A stretch of 64,000 nucleotides of DNA. Source: Macrolepiota albuminosa (Eukaryota > Basidiomycota > Agaricomycetes > Agaricales > Agaricaceae). The notes below the pieces were generated by a model. That model had not been told where the DNA came from and did no database searches. It saw only the letters and a list, made by a program, of their open reading frames with translations. Within the stretch, counting starts at the first letter, position 1; each line of letters begins with the position of its first letter. The translations under genes and the position numbers were made by a program. The DNA is taken from positions 1,798,001 through 1,862,000 of the forward strand of contig JAMWFC010000082.1 in the NCBI GenBank assembly GCA_027475525.1, read 5' to 3'. Below are positions 38,688-64,000 of this stretch, in pieces.

Positions 38688-38699
38688 TCTCCCCTTCTT

Positions 38700-38853
38700 G
38701 TCAAAGAAGAATTGCCTAGCAAACTTCTTAAACTTCTCTAGATCCCAGCCTTGTAGATTCTTGGGTTCTGTACCTGGTCAAAGAAGAATTGCCTAGCAAA
38801 CTTCTTAAACTTTTCTAGATCCCAGCCTTGCAGACTCTTGGGTTCTGTACCTG
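38700..38853. repeat. 77-bp tandem duplication in element A pol
   Basis: Copies 38700-38776 and 38777-38853 differ at three positions. Collapsing them restores the RT-to-integrase frame. Confidence 0.9.
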
Positions 38854-40846: not shown

Positions 40847-41287
40847 TTATAGTGGGTTGGGATCCAACTGAGGCATGTCTGCCAGTGGGTCTCCAGTAAT
40901 GCACCTCTCAATTCTAAACTCCTCAGGTGAGGTACCTAGTACAGGCTTAACTTTTCTAGCCACAGGTTTGTATTTCTTAGAAAATACTTGGGCAGTCTCC
41001 CCCACACCTGCTTTTGACTCTAAGTTTTCCTCTTGTACTAGCAGCTCCTCAAGACTGTCAGGTATTTGAGCTAAATGCCCATTCAAATATGCTGACAATG
41101 TCTTCTGCTCCTTCTCCTCACACCCCTTGCTTGCTGTAAAAGCATGCAAGTACACATCTCTCAACTCTTCCTGACTGAATTTACTATGTTCCATAGAATA
41201 TCCAGTCACCACAATCTCCCCTTCCTGAGTCTCAGCAAGACTTATTGCAATCTCTCCCTGGTCTGTAACCAGTTCCTCGAGACTCAA
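40847..41287 (-). pseudogene. element A protease-RT spacer
   Basis: Acidic linker between protease and RT (SLEELVTDQGEIAISLAETQ ... YKPVARKVKPVLGTSPEEFR). It overlaps the protease frame end by a frame change and is closed by TAA at 40847-40849, after which the same frame runs into RT. No enzymatic motif. Confidence 0.6.
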
Positions 41288-43609: not shown

Positions 43610-45030
43610 TGAAGACTTAGGTGTTTGTGGTGTAGGCGTGTACTTCTCAGTCCGAAGTTTTCATTTATGAAGTACAGCGTCTGGATCCAGGAGACTAGCA
43701 ACTGTGCCCTTGGAGGATGCATGAGTTTCTCTTCTCCTGGGAGAAATAATGGTTTTTGCCCTTGGTGTAGTAACCTTAGGCATGCCGGGCCAAGAACCTG
43801 GCAGTGCAAAACTAATGTTTCTTTTTGGGTGGTTGGACTCCAAATGGAGATCCGACAAAGTGTTTGATTGTGCAACAAAAGCCCCCTTGCGGTGGGCTCC
43901 AGATGATGCAAAAATGAGATTGTTTACTCTATGTAAAGTAGTCCGAAATGGAATTTGGACTGAACTTTGTTATATTTTGACTACCCAATTTCACAGAATA
44001 CGTGGGGCAGTAGTCACACTAGCACGCACTTTGTAAACATGGTTTATAATTTTTATTGATTTTAAATTGAATGCAAACTTAAAGTCACACTCAAATTTTG
44101 GGAGCAAATAGTATTAATACTAGTAAACCTGAAGTCAATCGTGATGCGTAAGGCCTAAGACGTCCACTCCCTGGAGACTCCGAGCTGTGGCAAGTTGATT
44201 GCTTGCCCGACTCCCCCAATTCCATCCTCCTTTTATACCTATTTCCTTTGAGCATGGACCAGTGCGTATCCACGTGGTAGTGAGTTATTCGTCGTGTTTT
44301 TGGGTTGCTTGGTGACCCGGCGTGGCCTATTGCTGGGCCTGGGCCCCGGTTACCGTGTTTGCTGTTGCTTGTTAGCAAGGCTAAACGTTTTCCCTCCCTT
44401 TTTGTTGGCTAAACCTTGCCCCCTTTGCTGTATCCTTCTCTCTACTCCTTTCCTCCATGGTCCTGGCTTTTTTGTCGTTGTTTCGTGGTTGGGTGGACAT
44501 GCAATGGGGTTGGAATAGCATAGCAGTGGCACGCAGGTAGTTTTTAAGAAGAACAATGTGCATACTCAAGTTTTGATCATGATCAGCTCATGATCGCTAG
44601 ATGAGATCGATCTCGGTGATTTGGCCGAGATTGCCATCAAATCCTGCCGCTGCCTTGTTTTGTCATCGGCTTCGTCATTTTAGGTGCTGGCTGGGTGGTC
44701 TGACGGTGCGCTGGTTGATATCCTGAGGTGCGTCTTGGTCTACAGTTTTCGACCATTTCACAAGAGCTTACAGTTTTCAGCTTAATCTTGTGTAGACTTG
44801 GGACAATTAAATAACAAATAAACATTTTGTGTATTTGTCGTCCCTTTCCTCTGTCTCTGTCTCTGATTTGAGACAGACGACGTATCACCTCCCTCACACC
44901 ATTTACTGACTGTCCCCAGTTAGCATGCCAACCTGACTGTGCTCTCGACTTTTTCTTGGCTTCGGCAGAAAAACTTTTTATGCGCAAAAGTTTTTTCTTT
45001 TACCTCCCGCACACTTCCCACTCATTTTTC
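43610..45030. other. element A leader between PBS and gag
   Basis: About 1.4 kb, unusually long. Contains a TATA-like TTTTATACC near 44233 and several short ORFs without motifs. It could include an undetected nested insertion, but I find no termini or target-site duplication. Confidence 0.4.
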
Positions 45031-45048
45031 TCCCGATCACAGCCACCA
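45031..45048 (-). other. putative primer-binding site of element A
   Basis: Three bases inside the 5' LTR end. The plus strand reads TCCCGATCACAGCCACCA, like the 3' end of a mature tRNA with CCA tail; the element strand therefore begins TGGTGGCTGTGATCGG. Which tRNA cannot be decided here. Confidence 0.55.
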
Positions 45049-45051
45049 CGG

Positions 45052-46036
45052 TGATGAGCCTGCATCGTGGCTGGCTACTGATAGCACCAATACCCACACC
45101 TCACATCGGCCCACTAGTACCACCAGAAGCGCCATGCTCTAGCGCTTCCAGTGCTATTTTTCTCATATTTTTACACTAATAACTCGCAGCTACAGACTCC
45201 AATTACTCTCAGACCACTTTTTATGGCACCACTTATTCTTTGCACCACTATTGACACCTTGCCGCACCTTGCCACTTGCACTTCAAGGCTATACATTTAC
45301 ACAGACACTTGGCATCAGTCAATCTGGCATAATGCTCTTAGCCAGTGGCAGCGCTTACAAGGGGAAATGATGAAGTATTTTCGTGACAGCATCATTATAG
45401 ACCTTTTTACTATACAATTCAATTCACCGCATTTACTTACATTTTTATCAGTTCACCACCCTCTAGCGGTGCTTAACCTCTTAGCGTCGGCTAACTTTCT
45501 TTACTATAAATACCTACTTTTTGTTAGTAGCACAGGGAATCAATTTGGCAGTAGAGATCGTATCCCAACATTTTGATCTCCATACACAACAGACTACCTC
45601 TTGTTGACCATGTCAAGCAAGGGGACTCTGCTCTAGTTTTCTATATCTCTCTCTCTCTAGCGCCTTGCAACTACGGCTTGGCTTTCGTGCTTAGATCCGC
45701 TAAGCAATCTCATTCTTTTATTATCACGTTCCAGGTGCTAACACTTAGCGCCTCTTAGCAACCCTTTCCCGCACCTCTTAGCACCTTTCTTAGCGACTTT
45801 CCCATGCTCTTAGCGCTCCCCCTTAGCAACTTTTAGCGCTCTGTAGCCACGTTTTGGAGCCATACGCAAGTGCCTCCAATTACCCACTTTCCTTGCCACC
45901 AACCTCTTGCCTACCATGTGTTCTCTGGGACCTGTCCAGGACTCTCTCACACACTTAGCACGCCCAAAGCTATATCAGCTAAGTAGCTGCACTAGTGATA
46001 GTCTACGCAGCACCCAGCTCGATTTGGGCGTCATCA
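45052..46036 (-). repeat. 5' LTR of element A, 985 bp
   Basis: Element strand starts TGATGACGCCC and ends CTCATCA, giving perfect 6-bp termini TGATGA/TCATCA. Aligns base by base with 55468-56253, with many CpG here matching CpA or TpG there. Inner part carries repeated CTTAGC motifs (plus strand, about 45743-45840). Confidence 0.75.
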
Positions 46037-46320
46037 ACGGTATAAAATCGCCATTGGTGCCACCTGCCATGTTTATGGCTCCCCCTACTGCTCTACGCAA
46101 GCCATCTGGCGCCAAGTTGCATCCTTAGGTCATCATCTCGACTCCTCCCAAGCCAACTGCTCCTCCCCCACCAATCCTGTCTGTGCCGACTGACTATTAT
46201 AGCTTGTTCCAGCACGCTGTCAAGCACGATGGCAACAAGGCTATAATGTCTGTGTTCAAGTACCCATGGTTTGCAGAGGCCACGATCGGCCTTTGTGCCA
46301 CTGCTAGGTCTTTTCCCAGA
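46037..46320. other. spacer between LTR copies
   Basis: No gene. The 3' boundary of the neighbouring LTR copy is not sharp. Confidence 0.3.
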
Positions 46321-47013
46321 ACAAATATTTTGGTCACTTTATGCAACAGACTACCTTTTGTTGACTGTGTCAGAAGAAGACTCTGCTTTAGTTCTTTCTC
46401 TTTCTCTATCTTTATAACCTCCTAGCACCTTCCCTTAGCAACTTTTAGCACTTTGCCTTAGCAACTCTTAGCACCTTTTCTTAGCAACATTTAGTGCATT
46501 TCCAACCACCCACTTTTCTTGCCACCAACCTCTTGCCTACCATAGGTTTTCTGGGATCTGTCTGTAAGGGTGACTTCTAGAGACTGTGGCTCAGTCACAT
46601 AGCTGGCAGAGGAAGATCCAAAGAGAATAAGTCTGGAGATTCTCTATGCCAGGTTGGATGCTTCTGGGGCCTCTAAAGCATGGGAAACAACTATACAGTA
46701 CAACAAACTTTAAAAACTCAAAAATTGCCTACATAAACAATTGCACAAATAAGGGGCAAACTCTGGCAAACTCTGGCTTATATAAGTGGTCTGGAAGCAG
46801 TGCTGAGGGGCCCACACTTGTTTGAATGGTAGCTAAAGAACCAGAGCACTTCAAGGGCTGAGAATAGTATTAACAGATAGTGAAGAAAGGAAGAAATAAG
46901 GAGTCCCTGACACTGTCCAGGACTTAACCCTCAAATACTTAATACACCAAAAGCAATATTGACTAAGTAGCTGTACTAGTGCTAGTACACCTTAGCTCAA
47001 TTTGGCATCATCA
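46320..47013 (-). repeat. degraded LTR copy of the element A family, interrupted
   Basis: Element strand begins TGATGATGCC at 47013 and matches the element A LTR through 46913, then again from 46562 to about 46320. The gap is exactly the nested 350-bp solo LTR. Confidence 0.65.
46563..46912. mobile_element. 350-bp solo LTR nested in the older LTR
   Basis: Begins TGTAAGGGTG and ends CCCTGACA (TGT...ACA) and is flanked by the perfect 5-bp duplication CTGTC at 46558-46562 and 46913-46917. Has a TATA-like CTTATATAAG near 46775. Removing it restores the host LTR (ATCTGTC|CAGGAC). Confidence 0.8.
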
Positions 47014-47526
47014 CCACTTTTCTTGATAAAGAAGTTTTATTTACCTTACCTGCTATCAACATTACTGACTTCTCTCTTGCATATTTGTACCTTACTGCTT
47101 GCAAATCATTTCAAAATATTTTATATTCTAAAAAAGAATGGTAACTTGCACATAGTCCACAGCCTTGAATTACTAAACAAAATTACCATATGGTGCTCTG
47201 GTGTACCAGCTTTTTCTGATCATATTGCCAAGTCTTTTGCCAGGCACATTTGTGGTGCCATCCTTGATCTCTACAGTGTAAGACACATGAATGGCAACTG
47301 ACTTTGCCGTGCCTGAATATCTTTCCTCACGGCAAATAAACTATATTTCTGAGTATACTACAGGGTAATACAAGTATTGAGGATTATAAGAACGAACTAT
47401 GAAAAAAATTATATGGAGTTGAAGATGGTATATAGGTGATTCTATGAAAGTCGGGGCAAAACCGACCAAATGCATGTAATTGGCAACCGTGACAAACACG
47501 GGTGTCACGCGTTTACTCGGGGTCAT

Positions 47527-48597
47527 CTATTGCCATCTCGTTGTCATCATCATCGTCGTCATCCTCCTCCTCCTCCTCCTCCTCCATTTCCTCTTGAAAT
47601 GCAAATTCGGCTTCAAGGTCACGATGCAGGGGCCTTGCGGGTCCTCCTCCTCCTCCTCCTCCATTTCCTCTTGAAATGCAAATTCGGCTTCAAGGTCACG
47701 ATGCAGGGGCCTTGCGGGCCTCTTTGGCCACCTTACTTTAGGGAGACCCTCCTCCGCCCATGTCTTGATTGCCTCCTCCCATTCCTTAACCGCCGTGTCG
47801 TGAGTTTTCTTCATCTCCTCCCATCGAGCTTCCATTGCCGCCTTTGCATCTTGCTTGGATTCTTGTTCTACCCTATTCTTTTGTTTCTCATCCTCATCCT
47901 TCTTCCTCTTCTCCCGCTGTTTCCTCACCGCAGCCTCAAACTCATCAGATGTCAATACAACACCTTTCCCATTGAACAATATTGTTCGATCGTCCTTCTT
48001 CCGGGTTTCCTTCAAATTCAGCGACTCCGACATCTTGTCAAGGACAATATGCTGAAAAACAAGCTGTGCAGATGTCCCCTCAAGCATAAACTCCTGCGCG
48101 ACAACGATATTGTGGGCCAATCGTAAATTTTTGGTAAGTTTTTGTGATTGTTCTTCTAACTCTTGCTTTGACTGATGGACTGGTGCTTCCCCGAACAGAA
48201 TATTCCAGTTGGGCATAGGCAGGTCAGGAAGTGAGCCGAGCACTGGTGGTCCTATCATTCGGCAAGCGTTTTCAGAGGTGAGCTTGGCCTTCGAGACAAG
48301 AAGGGAACCTGACGAGGTTGATGCTAGGGCAGCATTCATCAACCTCAAATGTTTGGATGGCGTATATAATTCTGGATCAATATTTGGGTCAAGCACTCAA
48401 CGGTGAATACGGGTGGGTGTCTCTGGACACCCAGTGGGGAGAGTATGGGTGTCTTCATCAACATCAAAGGCTGTTGGGGGGTGGAGGCGGTTTGCGGCTA
48501 TTATTGCTCGCACGGGGCTTGGTTGGGCAAGAGAAAATGACTGCTTCTTACGTTTTTTAATTTTCTTGACACGATCAGACAACGCGTGTCTGGTCAT
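47527..48597 (-). CDS. coiled-coil protein carried by the TA-flanked transposon
   Basis: Frame runs from 48597 (MTRHALSDRVKKIKKRKKQS, a nuclear-localisation-like start) through an in-frame TGA near 48397-48399 to VLDPNIDPELYTPSKHLRLM, NWNILFGEAPVHQSKQELEE, GKGVVLTSDEFEAAVRKQRE, a Lys/Glu-rich helix, and VRWPKRPARPLHRDLEAEFA, then an acidic tail. The helical end resembles the C-terminal tail of fungal pogo/DDE_1 transposases, but no DDE catalytic core or helix-turn-helix is present. It is either a 5'-deleted transposase in a non-autonomous copy or a separate accessory protein. Function not assigned. Confidence 0.5.
47565..47718. repeat. 77-bp tandem duplication in the transposon
   Basis: Copies 47565-47641 and 47642-47718, beginning in a CTC run. 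Shifts the acidic tail of the carried ORF. Confidence 0.9.
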
Positions 48598-48728
48598 TTG
48601 AGCGATTGACGCTGAGAAGCTTGATGGTGGATGCGGCGGGGCTAGTGCGGGTTACGCTTGGGCTGTCACGCTAAAAGGCACTCAACAAAGTCATGCATTT
48701 TGCGACGCGTCCACACCCCCAACGCGCC

Positions 48729-48882
48729 TCGGACTTTTTTTGTTTATGTTCCGTAGTTCAATAGCTTTCCATAGGTATCAATCTTGTGCAGGTTTACTGG
48801 GTATATCGGACTTTTTTTGTTTATGTTCCGTAGTTCAATAACTTTCCATAGGTATCAATCTTGTGCAGGTTTACTGGGTATA
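48729..48882. repeat. 77-bp tandem duplication in the transposon
   Basis: Copies 48729-48805 and 48806-48882 differ at one base (AGCTTTCC versus AACTTTCC). Confidence 0.9.
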
Positions 48883-51375
48883 TCGAGAGGAATCTTGCTC
48901 CGAAAAGTTGCCATCAGTCTCAAATCAGCTAAAATCAGCACAAAATCACTCGTCCCTCCACATAAAATTACACATTCAGCTCAAAACTGGGTATACATAT
49001 TCTCAAGGGGTATATCATTGCTGTATGTAGTAACATCAGGGCGAAATATGAGGCATTGGTCCAGTAGACAGGTAATTGCCATTGACCTATTGGTTGCCAG
49101 TCATGTGGATTACACTGTATGTTGGCTATGATGAGCATCTGATATATCCTTCTTCCTGAGATCTCACCACTTTTCAAACTCTGTTTAGTGCATTGCACCT
49201 AGTCACTCCCTATGGGCTGGACAACCTCACTCTCTATATTTTATAATGACATCACTTTCATTCTCCAACCCAAAATACTGCATAATGTCTTTAGCTTTAT
49301 CAATGATATTGGTGTCAAAGGCTCCAAAGATTGGCAACTTATAAACAGCTTGCCAGCAACCCATTCTGATAACTCCAATATTCACTTAATACTCTGAGAA
49401 TTTTTTCAGCTACTTAACTGAGTTCTCCAACATATGAAGTATAGCAGTGGAACTTTTAGCAGCTATAAGCTCCTGCTCTGCATGCCAAGGTTCAAAATAC
49501 TTGGTCACATCTGCACTCCTGACAAATATATTCCTAACAAGTCTTGCCTAATGCTTCTGGAACAATGAGATTCTTGCTGAAATCTTTTTAAGGTACATAC
49601 CTTTCTTAGAATCATTGGTGTGCTTTGAATATTTATCAAAAACTTTGCTCATTGCACACATGCCCTTAATCAACTCATCTATGCCAATGAGCCCTTTGAA
49701 TTCAGGCCAGACCAGATCAATGCCCAGCAAGATCTAGTAAAAGCTTTACAAGATGCCAAGCTGCTTATCTCCATTGACTATGCCTCTGCTGACCCTGTCA
49801 TCTTAGCAGTGGATACTTTGTATATTGCTATTGGCTATATTTTGTGTCAATGCCTTACCAACGATTAGAAACAATAACACTACAATCAATTTGGGTCTAT
49901 TATGCTAAACAACTGAGAATCCTGCTACAGTTAGCCTAAATTGAAGCTGTATGGACACTTCAAGGCCTTCTGATTGCTAAAAATGTATCTGATTGGCATG
50001 CGGAACCTTATTATAAAAGTCAATGCCAAGTATATCAAAGGCATGCTGCAGAATCCCAATATTCAGCCATCTGCTAGTATCAATTGTTGGGTAGTCGCTA
50101 TCTTTATATTTCACTTCAAACTGGTACATGTTAAGAGCTTGTTTTACAGATCAGATAGACTCTCTAGATGACCACAGCAGCCTGGCAACCCAGCAGTAAA
50201 TCTACAAGCAAATTGCAATTTTAAGTACTGAATCAACCAATTACATGGCTTCATGCACCGTATCTAACAACCGATTCTTCTGCTGCATTGACAACAGCCA
50301 GCTAGTATTCTTTTACATCCCATTGTCTCTTACAGACCTAAGATCTTTAGCACACCACCTACTTTCTACATGGCAAGCATTTTTAGCCAAGATTCCTCTC
50401 TAGTGAAAATTGTATAGGAGCCTTATTTGCTAAGAGAAAACAGCAGAAATTTGACATACAATGCTGTACTGTGATCTGCCAAGGCCAAAATAGAAGACAG
50501 TTGTTTAGTAACAGTTGAGCAATGGATTTAAAACTTCAAGTGACCAGCAAACCTTACTGATGAACAATATGCCATATTTATTTGCTATGCCACATACTTC
50601 TTCTTTACTGATAACTGTCTTTGGCAACAAAATTGAGATGGCACACATAAGCTAGTCATTAAGCTGGATGATTACCTATGAGTGCTGTGTGCTATACACA
50701 ATGAGCTTAGACATAGAGATCTTGATACTATCCAAGCCTCTTTCTTGGAATGATTTTGGTGGCTACACGCTAGCACTGATATCACCTGGTACATTAGAAC
50801 TTGCCATCTCTGCCAAATTCAACAAACATGCCAAGTGCTTATCCCACCAACTGTTGCAATGCCAGCTCCCCTCTTCAGCAAGATCTATATCAACACCATG
50901 CACATGTCCAAATCTGGTTGCTATAAGTACATCATTCAAGGTTGCTATTTGCTAATCTACTGGCCTGAATTTTGGATGCTTCAAAGAGAAAATACTGAGG
51001 CAGTTGCCAAGTGGCTATTTGAAGATGTTATTTGCCATTGAGGAGCACTAAGAGAAATTGTTATGGATAATGATGCACCAAGCATAAAAGCACTAATATA
51101 TTTCACCAAAAAATATAACATCCATCACATCTGAGTATCTGGCTACAATAAATGTACCAATAGACTGGTAGAGAGACTACACTTTGATATTCAACAAGCA
51201 CTCTTCAAGGCAGTCAATGACAACAAATCTTGTTGGAGTAAAGTGACATACTCAGTATTTTAGTTGAAAAGAGTCACAATTCATAAGCACATGAGTTGTT
51301 CTCCCTATTATGCAGCTACTGGCACTCATTCTTTATTCCTTGATGACATTATAGAAGTGACCTACCTCCAACCAG

Positions 51376-52302
51376 TGATAACGCCCAAAGTTTGGTCAGC
51401 AACAAATATAACTATAGTGTTACCGTACCAATAGCTTGCATTGGGCGCGCTATAAGTGATGTGAGGAGTCCCAGGCAGGTCCCAGAGAACGCGTCTATGA
51501 AAATGGAGAAAAGTTGGTAAGGGGGTCGGCAAGTGTAAAGCACTAAGGTAAAGCGCCTAAGAAGGGAGCGGTAAGCGAATACGGCAATGTCAACGGCAAG
51601 AACACAGTAAGCTTAGCGAAGTCTAAGCGTCGTAAATGCCTGCTGTAGATGCAAGGCGCGAATAGGTCGAAGGCTAGCGATAGTCTGCAACTGCCAACGA
51701 GCTCAACATTGCTGACCGTAAATGAGGTCTAGAGCGTAAGGGAGACTGAAGTAAGGGGAGCAGGAAACTCTGGTCTATTGTTCAATGTACAAGTCGGTAA
51801 GTACTTTTATACTACAATGAGTTCACCGTCGCCAGTGGCCAATGACGCCAAAGTGTGGTAAACTAGAAAATTTTATAGGGGTAGCTCCAACAGTTTCAGA
51901 TCCCTACCGTCCATTCAAGAACCTTAGCAATGCCAGGCAACAGATCGCAAAGCTAAACCATCAATCCATCACCCTTCTGTCTGTCCAAAATGCTTAGCAA
52001 TGTCAGGCGCCAGATTGAGGCGCTAAGCGGTGTCAGACGCCAAGGTCAAACACCAAGCTGTCCGTCAGTTTTTGATAGATCATCAGGCTTCTCGCTAAGC
52101 GCTGTCGTCAGTGACTGATGCCATCTGTCAGTTGTCATTCTGTCTGCCGTCGGCGCTATCATTGATCGGATCTGCTTCTTGCCGTGCGCGGCTGTCAAAT
52201 ATTGCCAAAATTGGTTAGTTAGCGTGTGCTAAGGTATCCCGGACCTGTGCTGTGTTGCCGTAGCCTGCCGTTGATGTGCTGATCCTGTATGGGGTCCTAT
52301 CA
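51376..52302. mobile_element. 927-bp solo LTR in element B integrase
   Basis: Starts TGATAACGCCC and ends TCCTATCA, with 5-bp inverted termini TGATA/TATCA and a 4-bp target duplication CCAG (51372-51375 and 52303-52306). It splits the integrase between TYLQPV and the ITDLIAR/LERLYD part. Related to but distinct from the element A LTR; shares GCTAAG-rich stretches. Confidence 0.85.
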
Positions 52303-52734
52303 CCAGCATCCAACAGCATCTTAGCAATTACTGATCTGATTGCTAGGTGAGCCATTGACCTTTAACAAAGAAAAGAAGATTTGGAGCGACTCTATGATGT
52401 GGTCTTTAGTGCTTATCACCAAGCAGCCCTCCAATTCAAGACAGAACATAGCGCCACTATAAAAAATTACAACTTCCTGAGAGGAGTACTAGTATTTATG
52501 TGTAACTCCAAAATAGAGACATTTTACAACAAGAAGATATGCTCATACTATTTGAGACCTTTGGTAGTTATCTCTCATAACTATGGAGGTGCTTATGTGC
52601 TTTGTGAATTAGATGGTTCAGTCCTACACCAACCTATTGCCACTTTCTGCTTATTTCTATATCTTGCCAGAGAATAGATTGACTTGCCACTTGAAGTGCT
52701 AAATATTAACACCGCTAAACTTTAAGAACTTGAA

Positions 52735-55467
52735 GAAACTGACTTATTGAATGATGATAATTTGCTGACTATATTTGAAGAAAAAGAAAACAATTAGAAA
52801 AGATTATAGTAATAAGCTCTCTTTTTCTATTACTTACTCTATTATATCTAACAGACATTTTCTTATGTAGTTAAGATGCAGCACTAGCATGGCTGCCAAT
52901 ACTTAGCACTTTGTGCAACTTTCACCAAGAGTTTTTCACTATGATGACTTACTGAGCATTTCTCTTTTTGCAAAATTTTGCTAAGTCCTCTTGAACTTTG
53001 TTTTATCTATTATGACTCTTAATTTGCTAAAAGGCTTACTCAATTTCAAAACCAGATATATATGAAGACTGACAGCAATACAAAAAGCTATACAAAAATG
53101 GCCTATCTATGCTAAGGTCTATTTAATCACTATCGTTGTCTATCAGCAAAGAGTCATCTAAAACTGGCAAAAAGGAGTTGTGAAGAGGAAAAAGATCATC
53201 TAGCAAGATGTTATTGGTGGTTTGCCAATCCATGGTGGCTTAGCAATTGTCTTAGTAATCACAAAGGATGCAAAGACTATGCTCTAAGTTAGAATAGCAT
53301 AGCCAAAGTGCCATGAGCTGGCCCCAGATTTGTTTCTGCTTCTGCCCCATTACCATTTCCATTGTTGCCGCTCTCTTTGAGAATCTCTCTAGCATCTCCT
53401 ACAAATTCAGTGCTACCACTGAATACATATGATTTTGATTTAGCCAGGTAAACATGTTGCCAGTGACTATAGGCTGCAGTTGGAGAGTTCATACAGGGTT
53501 GATCCTGGCAATGACAGGTTGCTGAGGCTCTAAACTAGCAACATCCTCTGGATCTGAGACTTCCTAAGGGGCAGTGTTACCATAAAGTGGTAACTACTGC
53601 CACTCAGGTTTCTGCTGCTACTTTCTCTGCTGCCTCCTTGGCTGGTTCCTCCCTACCTTCCTGCTGTGTTGTCAGAATCTCATCATCTTCACCATCAGCA
53701 TTCTTATCCCCTCTCATTGCTGTTACCTTAGCTTTTTCCTTCTCTTTCTGTCTAGACTCATCCCCCATCTCAACATCCACAGGAACCTCTTTCCACTCCT
53801 TCTTTGCTGCTGAGTTGCCAACCTTCTTCTGCTCTCCCAAATCTCCTGCTTCTCGGTTCCCTGACTCCTTGGTGCCAATTGAATAGGCAACAAAAGGCTA
53901 CTTGGATCTGCCTTGGTCTCTGGTGGCAGCAAGCAACTTGCTGCCAAGACCCTTTTCAAATCCTTCATCTTGGCATCTTTGGAAAGGGAGAAGAAAGAGG
54001 GCAACAACTCTATGCAAGGGCACTTTGCTTTGCCCTTCTTTTTGCTAGGGCTTGTTGTTTTTCTGAGACTGAAGTTCTTTGGTGCTCTCTCATGTCCTGT
54101 TTGCCAACTGTTTCAGATCCATTCTCTTAGCACATTAGCAATGCCAAGAAGGCTTGTCCAATTGAGGCCATTCTACTAGCAGCAATCTTTTTTTTCTGCA
54201 TTTCTATGAACTCCCTTGCTCTTCTGATTGATACAGCATAAGTAAATATCTTCTCAACCAAGGCATCTGGAGTCCTACCATGCTCATAACTTTTGGCCTC
54301 ATAATAATGCACATGTGTTTGAGGGCCCCACAGTGGTAACACAGCTATGCTCTAGTCAGGAACCAGCAGCCTTCTGGATTGTTATCTACTCAGCATTTGT
54401 CACACTACTATCAGAAGTTAGCAAAACTGCTGAAGAAAAAGAAGTCACTTGCCACTCCTCATGCTTTCTTGAATTCTTGCTGAGTTGCCAGAGAAATGGT
54501 CTTCTTCCTCTTCATTTCCTCTATAATGACCCCAGCTTTCTGCCTCTCATACAAGACAGCGTCTTCCCGATGTAGCAAAAGCTAAAAAATTCCTTGTCAT
54601 TGAAAGTGGATTGCATTGGCACCTATACAAACTTAGTCAATTCAAGCTTAAGTTCAAAAAGTACTACTTAATGCATATTGAAGAGCCGTCTTGTGACTTT
54701 GCAAAGTTTATTAGTGACTACTGGCAATGGCAAGAAACATCACAACATATCTTGCATTTAGAAGCAACTGCTGGCTTCTTTGGCAAGCCTGATTTGCTAG
54801 CTGGCAACACTGGGCTCATTGTGCTGCCAGCACAAGTTTTCTTCTTAAATCTTTTAGCTACAATTTTCTGCCTCTTAATGGCAGGCACTTTTTCTCCAGC
54901 AACATCCTTCATCTCCTCTGCCAATTCTCTGACTCTTTTCTGCTCCTCCAGCATCCTGGTAATTTTCCAGGACTCCTGGGAGATCTCCTCACACCTTGCT
55001 GCAATCTCCTTTTCTACTTGCATATATGTCAGGGGCACCAAGACCTTCTGCTTACTGTAGGGTGACAAATCAGACCAAAGCTAAGTTAGAAGTATGGGTT
55101 AGAGATACTCACTCTGCTGCAGGTATGCCTACCATCATTGGCAATGCCCTGGACAAAATATCCTCCAACTTGTCCTCAACAGTTGGAACAAGGGGAGGTG
55201 CCTAGCAACACAGTCAGCTGGCAATATGGCAAGAACCAGAAGCACTTACAAAATGAGAAAGAGGTGCTAACTACTCAGCACTATGATTGTCTACATAATG
55301 TGCCTGGCACTATTTCTGAACCTCAATTTTCCTATCTCAGCCTACGCCAAGAACACAAACCTCCAACCAATGCTCCTTTATCATAGTAACAACAAGGTTT
55401 GGAGGCACCTCCATGCCCACACCCTCAATGCATCTAATGAACTTGTTTTCTTTTTTAATATATGTGT
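52735..55467 (-). pseudogene. remnant of an intron-containing gene antisense to element B
   Basis: Not recognised. On the minus strand PTVEDKLEDILSRALPMMVG is followed by a well-formed intron (GTGAGT to CTACAG, near 55055-55112) and then VLVPLTYMQVEKEIAARCEE, a charged helix (LEEQKRVRELAEEMKDVAGE) and KCKICCDVSC. Lower-coordinate pieces include EAKSYEHGRTPDALVEKIFT (54290) and an acidic stretch (53800-53610). Stops break the frame. It may be an accessory ORF of the retroelement or a captured host gene. Confidence 0.4.
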
Positions 55468-56253
55468 TGATGACGCCCAAATCAAGCTGAAGAGCATGCA
55501 CTATCATTAGTATAGCTCCTTAGCTAATATAGTCTTGAGCATGCTAAGTATGTGAGAGAATCCTGGACAGGTCTCAGAGAATACATGGTAGGCAAGAGAT
55601 TGGTGGCAAGGAAAGTGGATGATTGGAAGCACTTGTATAAGGCTCCAAAACATGGCTAAAAAGCACTAAGAGTCGCTAAGGAATAGTGCTAAAAGACATG
55701 AGAGAGTCACTAATAAAAGGCACTAAGAGGTGTGGAAGAGTTATTAAAAAAAAGCACTAAGAGGTGTGGGAATAAGTTGCTAAGAGGCACTAAGTGTTAA
55801 CATCTAGAATAAGATAATAAAAAGATGAGATTGCTTAGTGGATTTAAGCACAAATGCCAAGCTGTAGTTGCAAGGCACTAGAGAGAGAAAAAAAAAACTA
55901 AAGCAGAGTCTTATTGCTGACATGGTCAACAAAAGATAGTCTGTTGCATATAGTGACCAAAATGTTGAGATACAATCCCTACTGCCAAATTGATGATATG
56001 CTACTAACAAAAAGTAAGTATTTATAGTAAAGGAAGTTAGCCAATGCTCAAAGGCTAAGTGCTGCTAGAAGGTGGTGAACTAATAAGAATATAAGTAAAT
56101 GTGGTGAATTGAATTGTATAGTAAAAAGGTCTATAATAATGCTGTTATGAAAATACTTCATTATTCCATCTTATAAGTGCTGCCACTGGCTAAGAGCATT
56201 ATTCTGGATTGACTGATGCCAAGTGTCCATGTAAATGTATAGCCTTGAAATGC
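55468..56253 (+). repeat. CpG-decayed LTR of the element A family, 3'-truncated
   Basis: Starts TGATGACGCCC and aligns with the element A LTR in inverted orientation (45285-46036) up to CTTGAAATGCAAG, where the 3' LTR and flank of element C begin. Sites such as GGGCGTGC versus GAGCATGC and TTAGCGG versus TTAGTGG show CpG loss. Confidence 0.8.
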
Positions 56254-56258
56254 AAGTA

Positions 56259-56493
56259 TGTAACGAAGTTACAAGGATTTGTGAGCTTAATGTTCACACT
56301 GCACAGAATCAGACCAGTCCGGTCTATTGACTATGTAGTACAAACAAAAGATAAGCTGCTTTGTAAGCAGCTGGTAAACTAATTTATATAATAATGTAAA
56401 TTAATATTATATTATAATAAATATAATATAATAGTATCTACTGTAAGGTAAGTAAAGCTATGTGGCCAACGCCACATAGCGGACTACGCTACA
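56259..56493 (-). repeat. 3' LTR of element C, 235 bp
   Basis: Element strand runs TGTAGCGTAGTCC to CTTCGTTACA (TGT...ACA). It contains a 10-bp stem with 4-base loop (arms 56457-56466 and 56471-56480), a terminal palindrome TGTAACGAAGTTACA, and a very AT-rich centre (56380-56440). The boundary follows from the adjacent purine tract; the 5' partner LTR is not in the window. Confidence 0.7.
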
Positions 56494-56503
56494 CACCCCC
56501 CAA
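56494..56503 (-). other. polypurine tract of element C
   Basis: Element strand TTGGGGGGTG directly abuts the LTR start TGTAGCG, the expected place for plus-strand priming. Confidence 0.65.
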
Positions 56504-57726
56504 TCAGACCGAGCTACGGTCTTGAGATAATACGACGGTCATGCCGTCGGTAAGTCAGGGACGGGGGCAATGGGAGAGTCCCCAGGCTCCCAGAATGGAT
56601 CGGCAGTCGCGTCGTCCATGTCGTAGTCGAGGAGTTCATCCTCGGGTGCGGGCGCGTAGGAAGTACCCGAAGGCCCTGCTACTGGCAGGGAATCGTCATA
56701 GTCCCGGAGGGGGGACAGTGTGAGATTGGGGTCGATGGTCGACCCCGGGACAGGTGGTTGGGGATCAGGCAGATCCCCGGTGTCGGACGGGTACTGGCAC
56801 GTCCAGATTTTGCGGGCATGAATGTCTTGCCCGATGGAGAGGTACATCCCCTTGGCGAGCGCGTCGTCGTATGCACGACAACTGTCCTGCTGCTGGAGCA
56901 TCAGGCGTTGGCGATCGCCAATGGTGGCCTCGCACCACCCATCCCACTGAGGGATGGACTGGGGTGTACCGTAGTGGTCGAGGCGTTGTAGCCTCTCGTC
57001 GTCGATAGCAGCCGCCTCGTTGTAGAGCCGGCTGTCACTGAAGAATAGATGGGCCAAGTAGGTGACCCCATAAGTGTACGCGTGGTCAGCCCAGCTGACC
57101 GGAATTTGATTGTGAAGAAGGACACGTAACGTGTCCGAAGTGGTGAATACGGAAGCTGACGCTTCCGGGATGTCCACAGCCTGAACCTCGAAGGTAGGGT
57201 CGTTGGCGTGGAGAGGCTCGAAGGCTTGCCCCGTGGCCGCCTCGTACTCAGCCACGGCCTCTTTGTAGAGGCCTGGCCTGGCGAAGACGTAGGCCAGGTA
57301 CTTGTATACCGTGGCCTTGGAGGGGCGGCTGGCGCTGAGGGCGCGTACAAGCACAAACCCAAAGAGGCTGCGCCAATGAATGCGCATGGCTCGGTCCAGA
57401 GCCAGACCGGTCCACACGTTGGACATCCCAGGGCATCCATAGAGGAGGGCGTATGAGCCCAGGTAGTCCAAAGCAAATGGTTGCTTTGGATCAGGGGGGG
57501 TAAGGCCGACGAAGGCAATTTTCCCTCCCTCTTTGCGGCGATAGAGCCGCGACGGCACAATTATTCACGGGACGTTCTCCCGCTCCTCTGGACTCGCGAA
57601 GGGTACCGCGATAGTCCTATACTCAACCTCGTCGAGTAAATGAGACATAGCTCTGTCTCGGGCCATAGGGTGGCAGTTGAGCGCCACCCGCTTGAATTCG
57701 TTGAGCAAGAGGTAGCCCAACTGATG

Positions 57727-57880
57727 CTGACAAAGCGGCGTAAACTGGTTGTTAACCAGTGCGTGAAGTCTGCGGACTTCTCGAGGACTGCGGGGAAACC
57801 CGGCTGACAAAGCGGCGTAAACTGGTTGTTAACCAGTGCGTGAAGTCTGCGGACTTCTCGAGGACTGCGGGGAAACCTGC
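57727..57880. repeat. 77-bp-period duplication in element C ORF3
   Basis: 74 identical bases at 57727-57800 recur at 57804-57877. Removal puts the ORF segments starting at 58082 and 57558 in the same frame. Confidence 0.95.
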
Positions 57881-58958
57881 GAGGTGCAACTTGGTACACC
57901 TTACTGTTGTGGGGCGTCGCGGCGGCGTTGCCCTGTTTATCGTCCTCGAAGGACCTGGCTGCGCGGGCTTCTTGCCCGACGAAGATGGTATTGGTCATTG
58001 GCGACCAATAGAATTGGGGAGCCAACTCCGCGCCAAAGAATGAGTTCTGGCGCTCAATAGTGTGATCACGGTAGATCACCACACCGAGCGCATCAGGGAT
58101 GCGCCCGGTTTCGTCCTCAAGGAGGGCGGCCCCTCATTTGGCGCTGTTCTGCGCCCGACGCTCCATCTTGGCTCGTTGATTGCTGTTGCGCTGTTCGCGC
58201 GCCATACGTTGTGCCGCCGTCTCGTGCGGCACTGGGGATTCCATACGAGCCTCTTCAGGCTCCTCATACCAATCATCGTCGGAGGGCGGGGAAGGCAGCC
58301 TCTCCGGCTCTGACTTCTCAGATCGTGGGTCCATTGCCCACACACACCGTGGGAGTCGGGCTGGCAGGCCCTCTACCAGTATAGCAGGTAAAAAGGGGAT
58401 GTTAGCCCCTGGGGCCCCTTTCGGGGCATCCTCGGAGAAGTGCACGTTGACGTAGGCGCGCCCTTCCAGTTGCTTACCCCGACGATCCTTTCGGGGTTGT
58501 GAGGCCTTGGCCTCAATGGGGCGTGTGCTCACGCCCCTGGAACTCTGCTCCCCAGAGTGCGTGGTGGATACCACGAATACTGGTCGTGAAGACGTGACCT
58601 CAGACGCGCCGCTGGCGAGGCGCTGGATAAGCCAGGGGGCGGCTGGAGCAGGAACATCTTCATAGAGGAGGATGTCCCGTCCTAGACCAGCCTCCCGGCC
58701 AGGGACAGCAACGCTCAACTTAATCGAGCGGGAGGGCGCGTCTTCCACTCCTTGCCGACGCGCCCTTTTGCTGGAGTCGGTGTCCCAACTCGGGGGTGTA
58801 GTCTGGCGCTTATGAGCGGCCGAAATGGCAAGGAGATCAGTTTTGCGCTGAGCGCGCATATGATCCATGTCGTCCATCATCCGGCAGATGAGGACGACTG
58901 CCTCCGCATCGCGGAGGAATGATGACTCTGCGGGTACATCGTACCCGTTATCTCCCAG

Positions 58959-59112
58959 ACGTTGGAGAAGGGTAGCCAGGACTAAGTCCTGGCTGTGAGT
59001 GGGCTCGACAGCCCATGCTTTTCCTTTGTCGCGTCACGTTGGAGAAGGGTAGCCAGGACTAAGTCCTGGCTGTGAGTGGGCTCGACAGCCCATGCTTTTC
59101 CTTTGTCGCGTC
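58959..59112. repeat. 77-bp tandem duplication in element C ORF3
   Basis: Copies 58959-59035 and 59036-59112. Removal puts the segments starting at 59824 and 58880 in one frame. Confidence 0.95.
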
Positions 59113-59765
59113 AAGGACGCGACTCTTCTTCTGAGCTGGGCTCGGATTGGTGCGGCATTTCCAGCCGCTGTAGCAAGGAGAGCTTGGCCAAGCTCTCCGT
59201 CGGCGCATCAGCCGATGAACTGATGCTCCGTTCTGTATTGAGAGTTTCTGTACTCTCGATGGCCGCGGTGGCCTGCCCGAGGGATGCTTTGCGTCCCTCT
59301 AGATTGTCAATTGGTGCTGTGGTCGACAGGGAAATCGACCGGCCTCCCTTGGCTTGCGACTCATGCGAGTCGCTGTACTGGGGCATTGCGCCCCAAGCCC
59401 CCATCCAAGCCGGGGGGTACGGCATCATTACGGGCACACCACCCATCCCAGGGTAGTGCGCCGGGGCGGTAAACTGGGGAAAAGAATGTGTCCCCAGTTG
59501 CCCTGTTGCCGGTACAGGGGCAAGCTGCCTCCATGCCGACGCTGCTTGGGGGCTGACTAGCCCCCCGTAGGCCTGTTGCTGGAATTGGCCCTCAGTGTGA
59601 TGTGGCGCATAAGCGCCCGGTGCTGGTTGTTGGGGCTGATAGCCGCCCACAGGTGCATTCTGGGGCATGAAGTTGCCCTGCATGGTTTGAAGTGGCGGAT
59701 AGCCACTGATCACCGGCTGCTGCGGCAGGTAGCCCGCCGCTGGTGGTTGCTGCTGCTGTGGGAAG

Positions 59766-59919
59766 CCCACAGCTGGTTGCGATTGTCCCCACTGGGGCGC
59801 ATTTTGGGTCTGCGGGGGAGCCATCTGCCCCCCCCTTCAGCCCCCACAGCTGGTTGCGATTGTCCCCACTGGGGCGCATTTTGGGTCTGCGGGGGAGCCA
59901 TCTGCCCCCCCCTTCAGCC
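59766..59919. repeat. 77-bp tandem duplication in element C ORF3
   Basis: Copies 59766-59842 and 59843-59919, identical and both including the C8/G8 run. Confidence 0.95.
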
Positions 59920-60012
59920 AACGGTAAGACCGACGGCGTACTCTCAAACTGCTGCTGCTGTAGCTGCTGCTGCTGCTGGTCACTTAAGTCCACGGGCATG
60001 CTGTCCATGGTT

Positions 60013-60166
60013 GGGGGAAAAAAGTGAAAAAGAAATTTCGCCTTTTAAGACGTGTTTCAGCCACAGCTGCTGACCAACTCAGCCAAGCCGGGGGAAAAAA
60101 GTGAAAAAGAAATTTCGCCTTTTAAGACGTGTTTCAGCCACAGCTGCTGACCAACTCAGCCAAGCC
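60013..60166. repeat. 77-bp tandem duplication between element C pol and ORF3
   Basis: Copies 60013-60089 and 60090-60166, identical, lying in the non-coding gap. Confidence 0.95.
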
Positions 60167-60188
60167 GCGATCGGCACTGCCGATCAAA

Positions 60189-63100
60189 TTAAGCGCCGGC
60201 ACGCTTACTTAATTGATGTGGGCGCTTAACGCCCTTCAACTCCAAATAACGGTCAAGTGCCGCTAGCTTGGAGCAATGGGAGTGTGGCTCCCATGTTGTG
60301 TCCCCCAGGGACCATCGTACTTCAAACTCGAGCGTGTTACGCTCAGTCCACCGGTGCCCAATTATGCACTCGATGAACCATTCGTCATCGTCTCGAGCCC
60401 CAAAATCATAGGGGCCCGGGGTTGCCCTGTTAGGGAACAGCGCATCGTCAGACGCGCTGTAAGGTCGCAACAGCGACACATGAAACTTAGGAACAATGCA
60501 TCGTTCCTGTAATGCCAGAGGCAGCTCCAACACGTAGTTGGAGGTACTTGGCTCTGCATCTAGGACGCGGTATGGGCCTACCCACTTCGGGCAGAGTTTA
60601 CTCGCCCGTCCCTTTGGGAGCTTCAGATTACGCGTTGATAGGTAGACCAACGCTCCTACTGCTATTGGCGGGTCCGCTCGCCTACGGTGATTGGCGTTTT
60701 TCGCCTGGAAGACTCGCACCTCTATGATGGCGTCATGCGCTGCCACGATGTTCTCCAGGGCCTGCCTGGCAAACTTGACAACTCCACGGTGAGCCACCGT
60801 ATCAGCACGAACTTTGTGCAGCATGGAGGGCAAGTACCCTCCGTTGAGTTCAAAGGGCGCATACCCTGTGGTATCCAAGATACTCGCGTTAATCGCGAAC
60901 TCGGTGAGTGGACACCAGTCCACCCAGTCCTGTTGGTCAGGGCGAACAACTGCCCTCAAAATCTGACCTATACTGCGGTTAGCCCGCTCTGTCTGCCCAT
61001 CCGTTTGAGGATGGAAGGACGTCGACATGAGGAGTCGCGCTCCTAGCAGTTTGTGGAGTTCTCTCCACCATTGAGACGTGAACTTCGAGTCACGATCACT
61101 CACAATGGTGCTAGGCAGCCCATGCAGCCTAACGATCTCCCTCAGGTAGATCCACGACAGCTCCTTAGCCGTCAGCGTAGTTCGCACCGGTATGAGGTGC
61201 ACCATGCTCGTCATGCGGCATATGACTACCCAGAGGTAATCGAACCCTCTGGACTCGGGAAAGGGACCTACGAAGTCCATTCCGATTGAGTCCCAGGGTT
61301 TCACCGGCACAGGTAGCTGGTGTAGCTTCCCGGGAGGGGACCCAGGGGGCAACTTTGCCCTCTGACACGCTGCGCATGACGCGCAAAACTTAGTCACTTC
61401 TTGGGCCATACGTGGCCACCAATACCATCTCCGGATGTAGCCCAACGTCTGGGCGGCACCAAAGTGCCCCACCAGGGCATGGGCCTGGTCCAAGACCCGC
61501 GTAACAATGGTACGCGTATGGGGGAGGCATACCACTGCCACCCCTTGACGGTTCTCCGTCGTGATGAGTCCACCAGGCTCATGCCTGAACCGAGGATGGT
61601 TGTCAGGATTGGCGATTATCTCGGTGAAGAGAGAATCATCGCCATAGTCCTGCACCACCTCCTGCCGGAAGTCGTCATTGACCAGGCTAGGAGGCTGGGA
61701 TGAAGGCAATTCGCCTTCGAGCATCTCCGCAAGCGTAACGGGTACATCGTGGCGCTCGTGCTCCCTAGTGGACGCTGGGTCCACGGCTTCATGCTCCTTG
61801 AGCAACTGGGCGGCTACGTCCCGTTCTTCACGCTGCTCTCTGAGGCGAGTGCTTCGCCTCCGTTCATCATCACGCATAGCGCGTACTTCCAGGACATGCT
61901 CCCTGAGCTCCTGGTATCGGTGGAGAGGTAAATCCTCTCCATCAGGGTCTATGCGGCAGTCTGCCTGCACATACTCATGAGGCTCGTGAGCCTCCCCGAC
62001 TACATCACTCTCAAAGTAGCACGACAAGCAGTCTGCCACTTTGTTGAGTTCACCTTTAACATAGGTGATGTCGAACTGGTATCTCGACATGTAGTCTATC
62101 CACCGTCGCTGGCGCGGCGACAAGTTCACCTGAGTTTTAAAGAACTCAAGGGCCTTGTGGTCCGTTATGATGTGGATGGGGTATCCCATCAGCTTATCCT
62201 CCCACTTGAGGAGGGCCTCGAGTATGGCAAGAGTCTCCAGCTCGTGCACCGCATAGTTTTGCTGGGCCGTTGTGAACTTCTTCGACATGAACCCTGCTGG
62301 GCGGCACGTCTGCCAGCTGCTTCCCTGGCCGTACATGGCTCCGACGCCTGTCTTGGACGCGTCGCAAATGAGCCATATCGGCTCATCCCGTCTAGGGTCA
62401 ATTGGTCGAATCACCGGAGTCTTTGTACAGATCCGTTTGACCATCTCGAAGCACCGCTGGTGCAACGGCCTCCAATTGAACGGTGACCCGTTCTGCGTCA
62501 TGGCCATAAGTGGCCCAGTATAGGCTGTGACATTGGGCAAGAAGCTCGATATGTAGTTGACAAGGCCAACGAATCGTTGGATGTCATTGTAGTTTCGGGG
62601 CGTGCGCCACTCCCGAATACGATCGAGCTTGTCCTGATCAGGGTGGATACCCTGCTCGTCTATGACATGCCCTAGGCAGTCTATACTCTGAGCGTAGAGC
62701 TCACATTTTTTCCACTTCAAGTACAACTTGTACTTGTGCAGTCATTCGAATACGACTCTGAGGTGCTGCTCATGCTCCTCCATGGTATCCGAGTAGATGA
62801 ATATGTCATCTAAGTAGACGTGCATGAAACGTCCTATTACGTCTCGGAAGATAGAGGTCATTAGCCTCTGGAAAGTTGCTGGAGCATTGCAGTCTCCAAT
62901 CTGCATTATATTGCTCGTGAATGTACCCATGATCGACGCAAATACGGTCTTGGGTACGTCCTTGGTGCGAATGCGCACCTGCTTGTAAGCGTCAGTAAGG
63001 TCAATCTTTGAGCGATACTTCGCCCGAGCCACGTCTTCCCGGATCACCTCTTGATCTGGTAAAGGAGTTACATCCTTTATGGTATTGTCATTGCGCTGAC

Positions 63101-64000
63101 GCGCATCAAGAGCTGTTCGAAGGGTTCCATCCTTCTTCGGGATGCACAATAATGGTGCAGCTTGAGCGGTGGTGCATGGGGACCACCATTGAGCATTCAA
63201 ATAGCGATTAGTCTTATCACGTAGCTGCTCCTGGAGGGCATGCGGACAGCGCGGCAAGTGGTACTTATACTGCTTGTTCTCGTCTATGAGATTAATCTCA
63301 TGGTTCACCTCCCTCCATGGCGGGAGCTCCTCCTTGGTCCCATTGACCATGTTGGCAAATTCTTCTTGCCATTGCTGACGCAACCGAGGAATATCTTCCT
63401 CACGAAGGCTTGTCGCCTTCTGTTTCCCCTTCATGCATACCGGGGGAAGTACTTCCACCGTCTCTGAGGGTGGCCGAGGTGGCGGTGCATACTGCTTGCG
63501 CATTGCGAGCACCCGATTGACACTGTCATCAGGTATATGTAGTCTCAGCGGAGCACCCGCTGCCGCTGCCTTATAAGCCACGAGGCTTCTTCCTTCACGT
63601 ACAAGCAAGTACGCTACGGATACCTCATCCGGGGCTGGCTGGCGATACGCTGGTTTGACGGTCATCCGTCTCTGGTGCGCATTTTGTGCACACGTGGCTG
63701 CCACCAGCTCGTTCCACTCTTGCGGCATTCGGGGGTCGTATGCCCAGTCGTACTCCGGTAGGGGGGCTGGTCGCTCCCATAGGGACCGTGTGTCCCCCTC
63801 TTCTGAGGCTTCCGCCTCTCGGATGCTGTCTTTCAAGTCTTCCAACTTGACTCGTGAGGACGTAGGTGGACATGCATCCACTGAGTCCTCCCGTTGTCTC
63901 ACCTTTTGATGGCGTTTGTCTGGAGGCCTTGCGCCTCAAATCTCAGGAGCGATTATTCGCTCGTTGCTCCTCTTGGAGGCTTGATACTCCTCCTCGCTCA
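60189..64000 (-). pseudogene. element C pol: RT, RNase H, integrase, chromodomain (5' end outside window)
   Basis: One frame from the right edge to 60189, interrupted by TGA at 63936-63938 and 62742-62744. RT: LLCIPKKDGTLRTALDARQR, SKIDLTDAYKQVRI, YLDDIFIYSDTMEEHEQHL (YxDD). The second stop falls in VVFE*LHKYKLYLKWKKCEL, where the family has Arg. RNase H: PIWLICDASKTGVGAMYGQG, YAVHELETLAIL, HIITDHKALEFF. Integrase: HALVGHFGAAQTLGYIRRWY with CASCAACQRAK, core GMDFVGPFPE, VSDRDSKFTSQWWRELHKLL, STSFHPQTDGQTERANRS. The C-terminus is a chromodomain (EWFIECIIGHRWTERNTLEF ... DTTWEPHSHC), which in chromoviruses directs integration to heterochromatin. Apart from the two TGA codons all catalytic motifs are intact. 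Confidence 0.9.

Follow-up and report, generated by a model that had tools for sequence, protein, structure and literature searches.

The genome of element C, a young fungal LTR retrotransposon, is crowded with short perfect hairpins at about eight times the level of chance, that is, about 11 per kb or about one per 90 bases. The excess is present in the LTR, the 5' part, pol, the downstream ORFs and those copies of the family that were read, and is absent from MDN1; the hairpins are of short range, are spaced at random, leave the protein unaltered, lie at other positions in a related family and show no pooled difference between the strands. As their cause we favour, at a probability a little short of even, a repeated rewriting of the sequence of this lineage by short-range fold-back copying, filtered by selection on the proteins. 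A limited search of the literature returned no description of hairpin-saturated LTR elements.

Element C and its layout

Element C is of the Ty3/gypsy type, lies on the minus strand and extends from position 56259 of the 64,000-nt stretch of DNA analysed (the window) to about 67982, past the window end. Its LTRs of about 235 bp (56259-56493 and 67747-67982) are 99.2% identical by self-BLAST, and the 5-bp target-site duplication AAGTA is found on both flanks, at 56254-56258 on the left and, beyond the window, at 67983-67987 on the right. Pfam matches place reverse transcriptase (RT), RNase H and integrase in sense order across 63902-60189, and gag and protease are recognisable by zf-CCHC (L009:652-2037, 4.9e-6) and RVP_2 (L009:95-733, 8.1e-8); two other 5' ORFs gave no Pfam domain match. 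The 845-aa pol, truncated by an in-frame stop in the copy of the window, has an SH3_Tf2-1 domain and no chromodomain (PF00385) at E<=1e-3, and some relatives do have a chromodomain. Homologues of ORF3 are named Termitomyces in 31/31 cases, with no other names. The host itself is probably Termitomyces or a near relative. Self-priming by a 5' hairpin, used by several chromoviruses according to PMC3601003, was considered and left no sign, the longest complementarity between the LTR and the first 30 nt after it being 7 nt.

Table 1. Features of element C with their window coordinates; hairpin counts are for arms of 6 bp or more.
Feature	Position	Strand	Basis
Target-site duplication AAGTA, left copy	56254..56258	.	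Flanking sequence
3' LTR, 235 bp, hairpin-rich	56259..56493	-	Self-BLAST; 6 hairpins vs 0.5 in shuffles; 24-copy alignment
10-bp LTR hairpin GCTATGTGGC(CAAC)GCCACATAGC	56457..56480	.	Exact form in 17/24 copies
ORF3, 341-aa open frame	56542..57564	-	11 hairpins vs codon-shuffle mean 1.05
10-bp hairpin inside ORF3, TCCAAAGCAA(ATGG)TTGCTTTGGA	57467..57490	.	Sequence
Other ORFs downstream of integrase, several frames, with 77-bp assembly duplications, hairpin-dense	57564..60044	-	58137-59033: 11 vs 1.3
pol: RNase H, integrase zinc finger, integrase core, Tf2-1-like SH3	60189..62741	-	25 hairpins vs 4.7 in codon shuffles
8-bp hairpin CAAGTACA(ACT)TGTACTTG, immediately past (sense) the pol-truncating stop	62718..62736	.	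Sequence
Reverse transcriptase (RVT_1)	62742..63935	-	10 hairpins vs 1.8 in codon shuffles
Beginning of the 5' part, continuing beyond the window (locus L009)	63936..64000	-	33 hairpins in 3,610 nt vs 4.3 (5' part)
Protease ORF 64095-64733; zinc-knuckle gag ORF 64652-66037; 5' LTR 67747-67982	Beyond window	-	Domain matches, self-BLAST

Hairpin excess

Hairpins were counted with arms of 6 bp or more and loops of 3-8 bases, unless another arm length is given. Over 56258-67982, reduced to 11,183 nt by dropping the second copies of 77-bp duplications, element C has 123 hairpins, where 100 dinucleotide shuffles average 14.4 (sd 4.1) and reach 25 at most, an excess stronger than the original prediction had claimed; the count is 121 when the masked stretches stay in place, and 85 in the 7,434 nt of 56259-64000. 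For arms of 7 bp or more the figures are 52 against 3.5, and for 8 or more 21 against 0.9, the ratio of observed to shuffled counts climbing through 4.4, 8.5, 15 and 24 at arms of 5+, 6+, 7+ and 8+. The density of arms of 7 bp or more is 17 per kb in the LTR, 7.4 in the downstream ORFs, 3.1 in the 5' part and 2.2 in pol, a gradient which fits a filter by protein constraint. All 20 hairpins listed in the prediction exist, 19 of them at the coordinates given there and one (63405-63421) displaced by a single base; inward extension lengthens the arms of four, leaving a centre of 0 or 1 base, and three (57744, 57765, 58974) are inside 77-bp stretches repeated in the assembly, each being counted once in the densities. 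For 62700-64000, where at least eight had been announced, 12 were counted.

Structure had also been said to be superimposed on coding sequence, and the codon-preserving shuffles (200 for each of 12 partly overlapping ORFs, duplications unmasked) agree, the arms leaving the protein unaltered and element C being denser than such shuffles. In 10 of the 12 ORFs no shuffle reached the observed count, the exceptions being 66969-67682 (3 against 0.8, 7/200) and 64095-64733 (2 against 0.6, 29/200). Four ORFs without second duplication copies illustrate the difference: pol (60192-62741) has 25 against 4.7 (0/200), RT (62745-63935) 10 against 1.8, 56542-57564 has 11 against 1.05, and 58137-59033 has 11 against 1.3.

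Rest of the window and relatives

Elsewhere in the window, dinucleotide shuffles predict 43.1 hairpins for 1-31000 and 13.1 for 49001-56257, and 41 and 13 are found; MDN1, rightly described beforehand as much sparser, has 17 against 17.0. A mild excess is seen in 31001-49000 (39 against 24.8; arms of 8 bp or more, 11 against 1.4), mainly, for arm 6, in the gag/protease part of element A (13 against 4.0; its protease-region ORF, 9 against 1.9), so that the alleged sparseness of element A holds for its pol (3 against 3.3) and fails for this part. The ORF of D, a diverged sister family, has 112 matches of 60-100% identity in this genome. In D (1,487 nt) there are 11 hairpins against 2.2, and 9 against 0.6 for arms of 7 bp or more. 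They are mostly elsewhere, one of eight being within 3 alignment columns of one among the 11 of C, and two of the eight lying beyond the aligned range of C. A distant gypsy pol in the same genome lacks the excess; since C and D have the trait, and MDN1 and this pol do not, the trait tracks lineage rather than genome. No relatives were found in the viral contigs of other sequence collections, and three contigs in bacterial bins, with a pol 30-35% identical, are presumably eukaryotic contamination. Their observed counts against codon-shuffle means are 13 against 3.9 (0/100) and 2 against 2.5 for L040, 9 against 5.7 for L038, and 7 against 5.0, 9 against 3.8 and 1 against 0.8 for L039.

Hairpin anatomy

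The excess covers loops of about 1-18 bases and peaks at 4-6, or at 4 by maximal arms; the loops are A/T-rich with 4 as the commonest length, and no excess is found in element C at loops of 19-30, pol alone being somewhat high at 20-50 (9.1/kb). After about 3 pairs, the next position pairs with a probability that climbs to 0.41-0.55, and past the first mismatch six positions pair in 395 of 1503 cases (0.26), which equals random, the stems ending abruptly. Spacing is Poisson-like (CV 0.96). Mismatches of near-perfect stems that are common to most copies are, on the sense strand, G.U and A.C in proportions of 29:30 (7-pair stems), 18:18 and 8:8. Neither these proportions nor the abrupt ends were retained as decisive evidence, because similar values came from random sequences that had been evolved for the folding energy of the sense strand (G.U:A.C 10:13 and 6:8; pairing beyond the stem 0.278), and both tests therefore have little power. 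The 5' arms are G-rich, with 75 hairpins having more G than C and 21 the reverse (p 2.7e-8; 41:32 in window 1-56257), or 133:61 at arms of 5 bp or more (122:115 in the same part of the window). This G-richness is not predicted by simple fold-back copying and, being strand-independent, confounds the polarity of arm composition, which was discarded as a clue.

Variation among copies

Within the LTR, columns in arms are less variable than the others (21/92 against 64/143, p 0.0008), with no difference in non-transition changes (p 0.27), and arms outside the LTR gain transversions like the rest (27/1626 against 150/7711 columns, p 0.49). Among 24 copies, 25 linked multi-base variants include one hairpin gain against 0.32 expected, and no clear fold-back event was found among copies of element C. 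In the AT-rich stretch of the LTR, L019 and L028 have a perfect 14-bp stem whose register differs from that of most copies and which uses the same right-hand segment; the change of register fits fold-back copying, but in low-complexity sequence it is suggestive only. In pol and RT, lineage-specific residues are not in excess in the arms (5' arms +0.034, 3' arms +0.018, rest -0.002) and neither arm looks copied from the other. A lower conservation of 3' arms (0.489 against 0.603) vanished against the site variability of the relatives themselves and is absent in ORF3. Compensatory arm changes, which the prediction had proposed to look for, did not hold up: two-sided changes occur in 41 of 1,258 pairs among copies, where slid controls gave 3-12, but every one of the 41 combines G-C with A-T or C-G with T-A. 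Two C>T-type decays arising independently would produce this pattern, C>T and G>A making up 732 of the 916 private changes, and the 41 pairs are not counted as support.

Origin of the hairpins

In fold-back copying, the growing end would fold, during strand synthesis, onto the stretch just made, copy 5-10 bases and go back to the template, each event creating exactly inverted arms around a short loop; quasi-palindromes would thereby be perfected repeatedly. Protein-spoiling events would be lost, the survivors in pol being (nearly) synonymous changes. The process would operate most simply in reverse transcription, where it is placed because the tested host gene is spared; the copying process as cause, reverse transcription as stage and the direction of copying are all three what we infer. 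The arm-length trend, short loops, random stem ends, pooled strand parity, Poisson spacing, density gradient, the other places in D and MDN1 at expectation all count for it. On the other side stand the G-rich 5' arms, the lack of a caught event and of extra lineage-specific residues in arms, the less variable LTR arms, as selection would give, and the sense-lower folding Z in D and downstream in C. More tentatively, the copying machinery of the lineage might actively write perfect hairpins into its own genome, fast enough to arrive at about one per 90 bases and checked by protein function alone; with similar reserve, templated fold-back mutation rather than point mutation may then shape a mobile element.

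Of the two causes originally proposed, template-switch copying is the one favoured, its events uncaught, and ordered genomic RNA fits poorly. If selection favoured a sense genomic RNA that is tightly folded and ordered on a genome scale, this would account for a mean folding Z of -2.15 over 117 windows of element C (background about -0.2), but the pooled sense/antisense difference is -0.10 +/- 0.13 Z, both strands folding equally well. Regions are mixed in a separate test, with sense lower than antisense in D (-2.78 against -1.79) and in the downstream part of C (-2.66 against -1.78), where the mean energy itself is lower on antisense (-47.6 against -45.2). The want of an excess at loops of 19-30 also tells against it. 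Simulated selection for sense folding, taking random coding sequence to Z -1.95 (4 replicates), gave 3.75 short hairpins/kb, an antisense Z of -0.89 and 9.6 long-loop stems/kb, against 8.9-12.4 short hairpins/kb in element C; with so few hairpins and such strand bias, plain ordered genomic RNA is improbable. Far less credible still is an origin in chance, base composition, codon usage or assembly artefact. The assembly does have artefact-like 77-bp duplications, four of them within 56259-64000, but their second copies were masked or dropped and 25 copies of the family, read whole or partly, agree (8.3-15.3 hairpins/kb), which rules out the artefact; chance and composition are ruled out by dinucleotide and codon-preserving shuffles, 5-10 fold below element C.

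A somewhat less probable alternative to fold-back copying is that selection favours numerous short stem-loops in themselves, whether in RNA, single-stranded cDNA or extruded DNA; they might serve, for example, in packaging, in protecting against nucleases or silencing, or in making reverse transcriptase pause. It would agree with arms that exploit synonymous freedom, with loop lengths and A/T-rich loops that suit stable hairpins, with the lower variability of LTR arms and with G-rich 5' arms, which are similar to the asymmetry of G-C over C-G that PMC8794818 discusses in stems of RNA. It agrees less well with the sharing of at most 1/8 positions between C and D, with random spacing and with non-LTR arms that gain transversions like the rest.

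The excess suggests that either a copying mode or a hidden demand on the nucleic acid keeps writing hairpins into element C. If copying is true, the lineage would preserve, naturally and at high density, the traces of short-range template switching, a process known elsewhere from scattered events, whose rates, loop sizes and direction would be measurable from sequence; if selection is true, an LTR element would have an unknown need for short stem-loops. Either way, the question is testable with more families from this genome and its genus.

Comparison with known systems

Like Ty3/gypsy elements (Metaviridae) with a Tf2-1-like integrase tail, element C has LTRs, a 5-bp target duplication, a zinc-knuckle gag, an aspartyl protease, the RT-RNase H-integrase order and the SH3_Tf2-1 domain; unlike others, it is saturated with perfect short hairpins and has extra ORFs past the integrase. 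Genome-scale ordered RNA structure (GORS) has been proposed for some RNA viruses. Element C resembles these in an unusual folding energy spread over coding sequence, and differs in being an LTR element with mostly short stems and no pooled strand preference. Finally, template switching creates and perfects hairpins in RNA genes (Monttinen and Loytynoja 2022, PMC8794818), where, according to this source, events were found on trees and one-step arm perfection is the proposed mechanism. In contrast to the RNA genes described there, element C is a whole mobile element with about 11 hairpins/kb and no clear event, and its 5' arms lack the T-A over A-T excess at arm 6+. As in the hairpins of that account, the arms of element C are exact reverse complements and the loops are short, 4 being the commonest length.

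Hairpin excess and coding sequence

Element C contains 123 hairpins (perfect arms of 6 bp or more, loops of 3-8) in 11,183 nt, or 11.0 per kb, against an expectation of 14.4 ± 4.1 (maximum 25) in 100 dinucleotide shuffles, and the ratio of observed to expected climbs with arm length, from 4.4 (5+) to 8.5 (6+), 15 (7+) and 24 (8+). At arm 6+, the excess over these shuffles is found in the LTR (6 vs 0.5), the 5' part (33 vs 4.3), the pol region (36 vs 4.7) and the downstream ORFs (43 vs 4.6), with loops of about 1-18 and a peak at 4-6. The dense packing of short hairpins claimed in the original prediction is thus firmly observed, and with the codon-preserving shuffles proposed there it persists in all but two of the 12 ORFs tested, pol being one example (25 vs 4.7). 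In a limited literature search, an earlier description of hairpin-saturated LTR elements was not found. For 35 hairpins in pol and RT, compared with 26 and 25 relatives, the lineage-specificity of residues encoded by arms does not exceed that of the remaining residues (5' arms +0.034, 3' arms +0.018, rest -0.002), and the codon registers of pol arms are even (9, 8, 8). Therefore, the hairpins occupy synonymous freedom, in line with the suggestion that structure overlies coding sequence.

Structure of the element

By Pfam, one ORF in the 5' part of element C has a zinc knuckle and another an aspartyl protease domain; RT, RNase H, the zinc finger and core of integrase, and an SH3 domain of the Tf2-1 type come next, which is the Ty3/gypsy order; further ORFs, including ORF3, lie downstream of integrase. 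All 31 protein matches of ORF3 are named Termitomyces (37-47% identity), and the host is therefore probably Termitomyces or close kin. A Pfam search of ORF3 from C and its sister family D gave no domain, and ORF3 is a lineage-specific extra gene. The near-identity of the LTRs suggests a young insertion. Among 40 scored of 913 first-look candidates, the LTR-ORF3 end has long matches in its own genome at 93-100% identity. The pol of the window copy has one in-frame stop, and is open in several other copies. Most 77-bp tandem duplications are exact (two at 95-99%); they are present in genes and elements alike, and compared copies of element C carry them at other places. They are most likely unmerged overlaps from an assembler with k = 77, and can artificially break reading frames.

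Positions of features in the window and in stretch L013
Feature	Position	Remark
LTRs of element C	window 56259-56493 and 67747-67982	minus-strand element; 99.2% identical to each other
Target-site flanks of element C		AAGTA on either side, by our reading of flanking sequence
ORF3 of C and D	window 56542-57564 and L013:3088-4191	behind integrase
D segment	L013:2715-4201	adjoins a C copy; codes ORF3
Element A, protease-region ORF	window 41284-42309	9 hairpins vs 1.9 (codon shuffles)
77-bp tandem duplications	window 3881-4034, 5687-5840, 8271-8426, 14331-14484, 38697-38850, 47565-47722, 48729-48885, 57726-57877, 58959-59113, 59766-59919, 60013-60167	
Inverted pair	window 45274-45532 / 55999-56257	259 nt, 88% complementary, 10.5 kb apart; right arm stops at element C insertion point

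Copies and other sequences

Hairpin density is 8.3-15.3 per kb in 25 copies of element C, that of the window included (part 56258-66300; coverage is limited to 3-4 kb in a few of them, and L012 shares 99.7% identity with L020). Of 211 hairpin centres in 24 copies, 123 (our addition of the table) are found in at least nine, and therefore the source element was already rich in hairpins; 36 are confined to a single copy. After insertion, the copies have changed chiefly through C>T and G>A decay; these two types make up 732 of 916 private changes (80%) and are nearly balanced (360 and 372), a likely result of methylated-cytosine decay. In the AT-rich LTR stretch aligned to window 56340-56440, the copies L019 and L028 have a perfect 14-bp stem in a register unlike that of most copies, pairing with a right-hand segment that most copies use too; this is possibly a re-templated arm.

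The host gene MDN1 is at shuffle expectation (17 vs 17.0), sparser than element C, as it had looked by eye. Element A, which had also looked sparser, is so in its pol ORF (3 vs 3.3, codon shuffles) but not in its protease-region ORF. The D segment, whose ORF3 is 39% identical to that of C over 245 residues, shows 11 hairpins against an expected 2.2 (9 vs 0.6 at arm 7+; longest arms 11 bp), and its ORF alone 8 vs 1.4 (0 of 100 codon shuffles reach this). The D hairpins are placed elsewhere: of eight, one is 3 or fewer alignment columns away from a hairpin of C (11 compared), and two fall outside C's aligned range. A distant gypsy pol of the same genome (L029:6960-9950, 22% identical) is below expectation (5 vs 12.0, arm 5+). 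At arm 6+, the majority of the other stretches counted are near expectation, with L016:4397-5465 (5 vs 1.2), L031:6262-7303 (3 vs 0.7), L033:8240-9951 (5 vs 2.3) and L029:2935-6900 (9 vs 5.1) above it. Of three contigs from other collections that carry a distant gypsy pol, two are only slightly high and one clearly so (L040:1770-5342, 13 vs 3.9); the latter is binned as Erythrobacter, and is presumably eukaryotic contamination of a bacterial MAG. From this mixed excess, high in D, the protease-region ORF of element A and L040 and low in the distant gypsy pol, the trait is graded, with the C/D lineage as its extreme.

Origin of the hairpins and arm polarity

Fold-back copying is tentatively placed first, at somewhat under an even chance; harmless events alone would survive, restricting hairpins to synonymous freedom. 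Selection for short stem-loops, by which codons would be picked for pairing ability, comes second, with a lower but still appreciable probability, and an ordered sense RNA is unlikely. Of the causes originally proposed, template-switch-type copying accordingly leads the ranking, and ordered genomic RNA falls to third place.

Another feature is the G-richness of 5' arms. At arm 6+, G exceeds C in 75 and C exceeds G in 21 of 96 unequal 5' arms of element C (p 2.7e-8), vs 41:32 in the rest of the window; at arm 5+ the ratios are 133:61 in C, 11:3 in D and 122:115 in the rest, and the bias is absent from local shuffles of C. The non-C stretch L029:2935-6900 has G-rich 5' arms (16:3) despite no arm-5+ excess (21 vs 20.9), and therefore polarity may not be tied to hairpin excess. 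It is no sense/antisense effect, because the arms of perfect hairpins read identically from either strand. For RNA stems, a passage of PMC8794818 discusses the asymmetry of G-C over C-G together with that of U-A over A-U; in comparison with that passage, element C at arm 6+ shows the G-C half alone.
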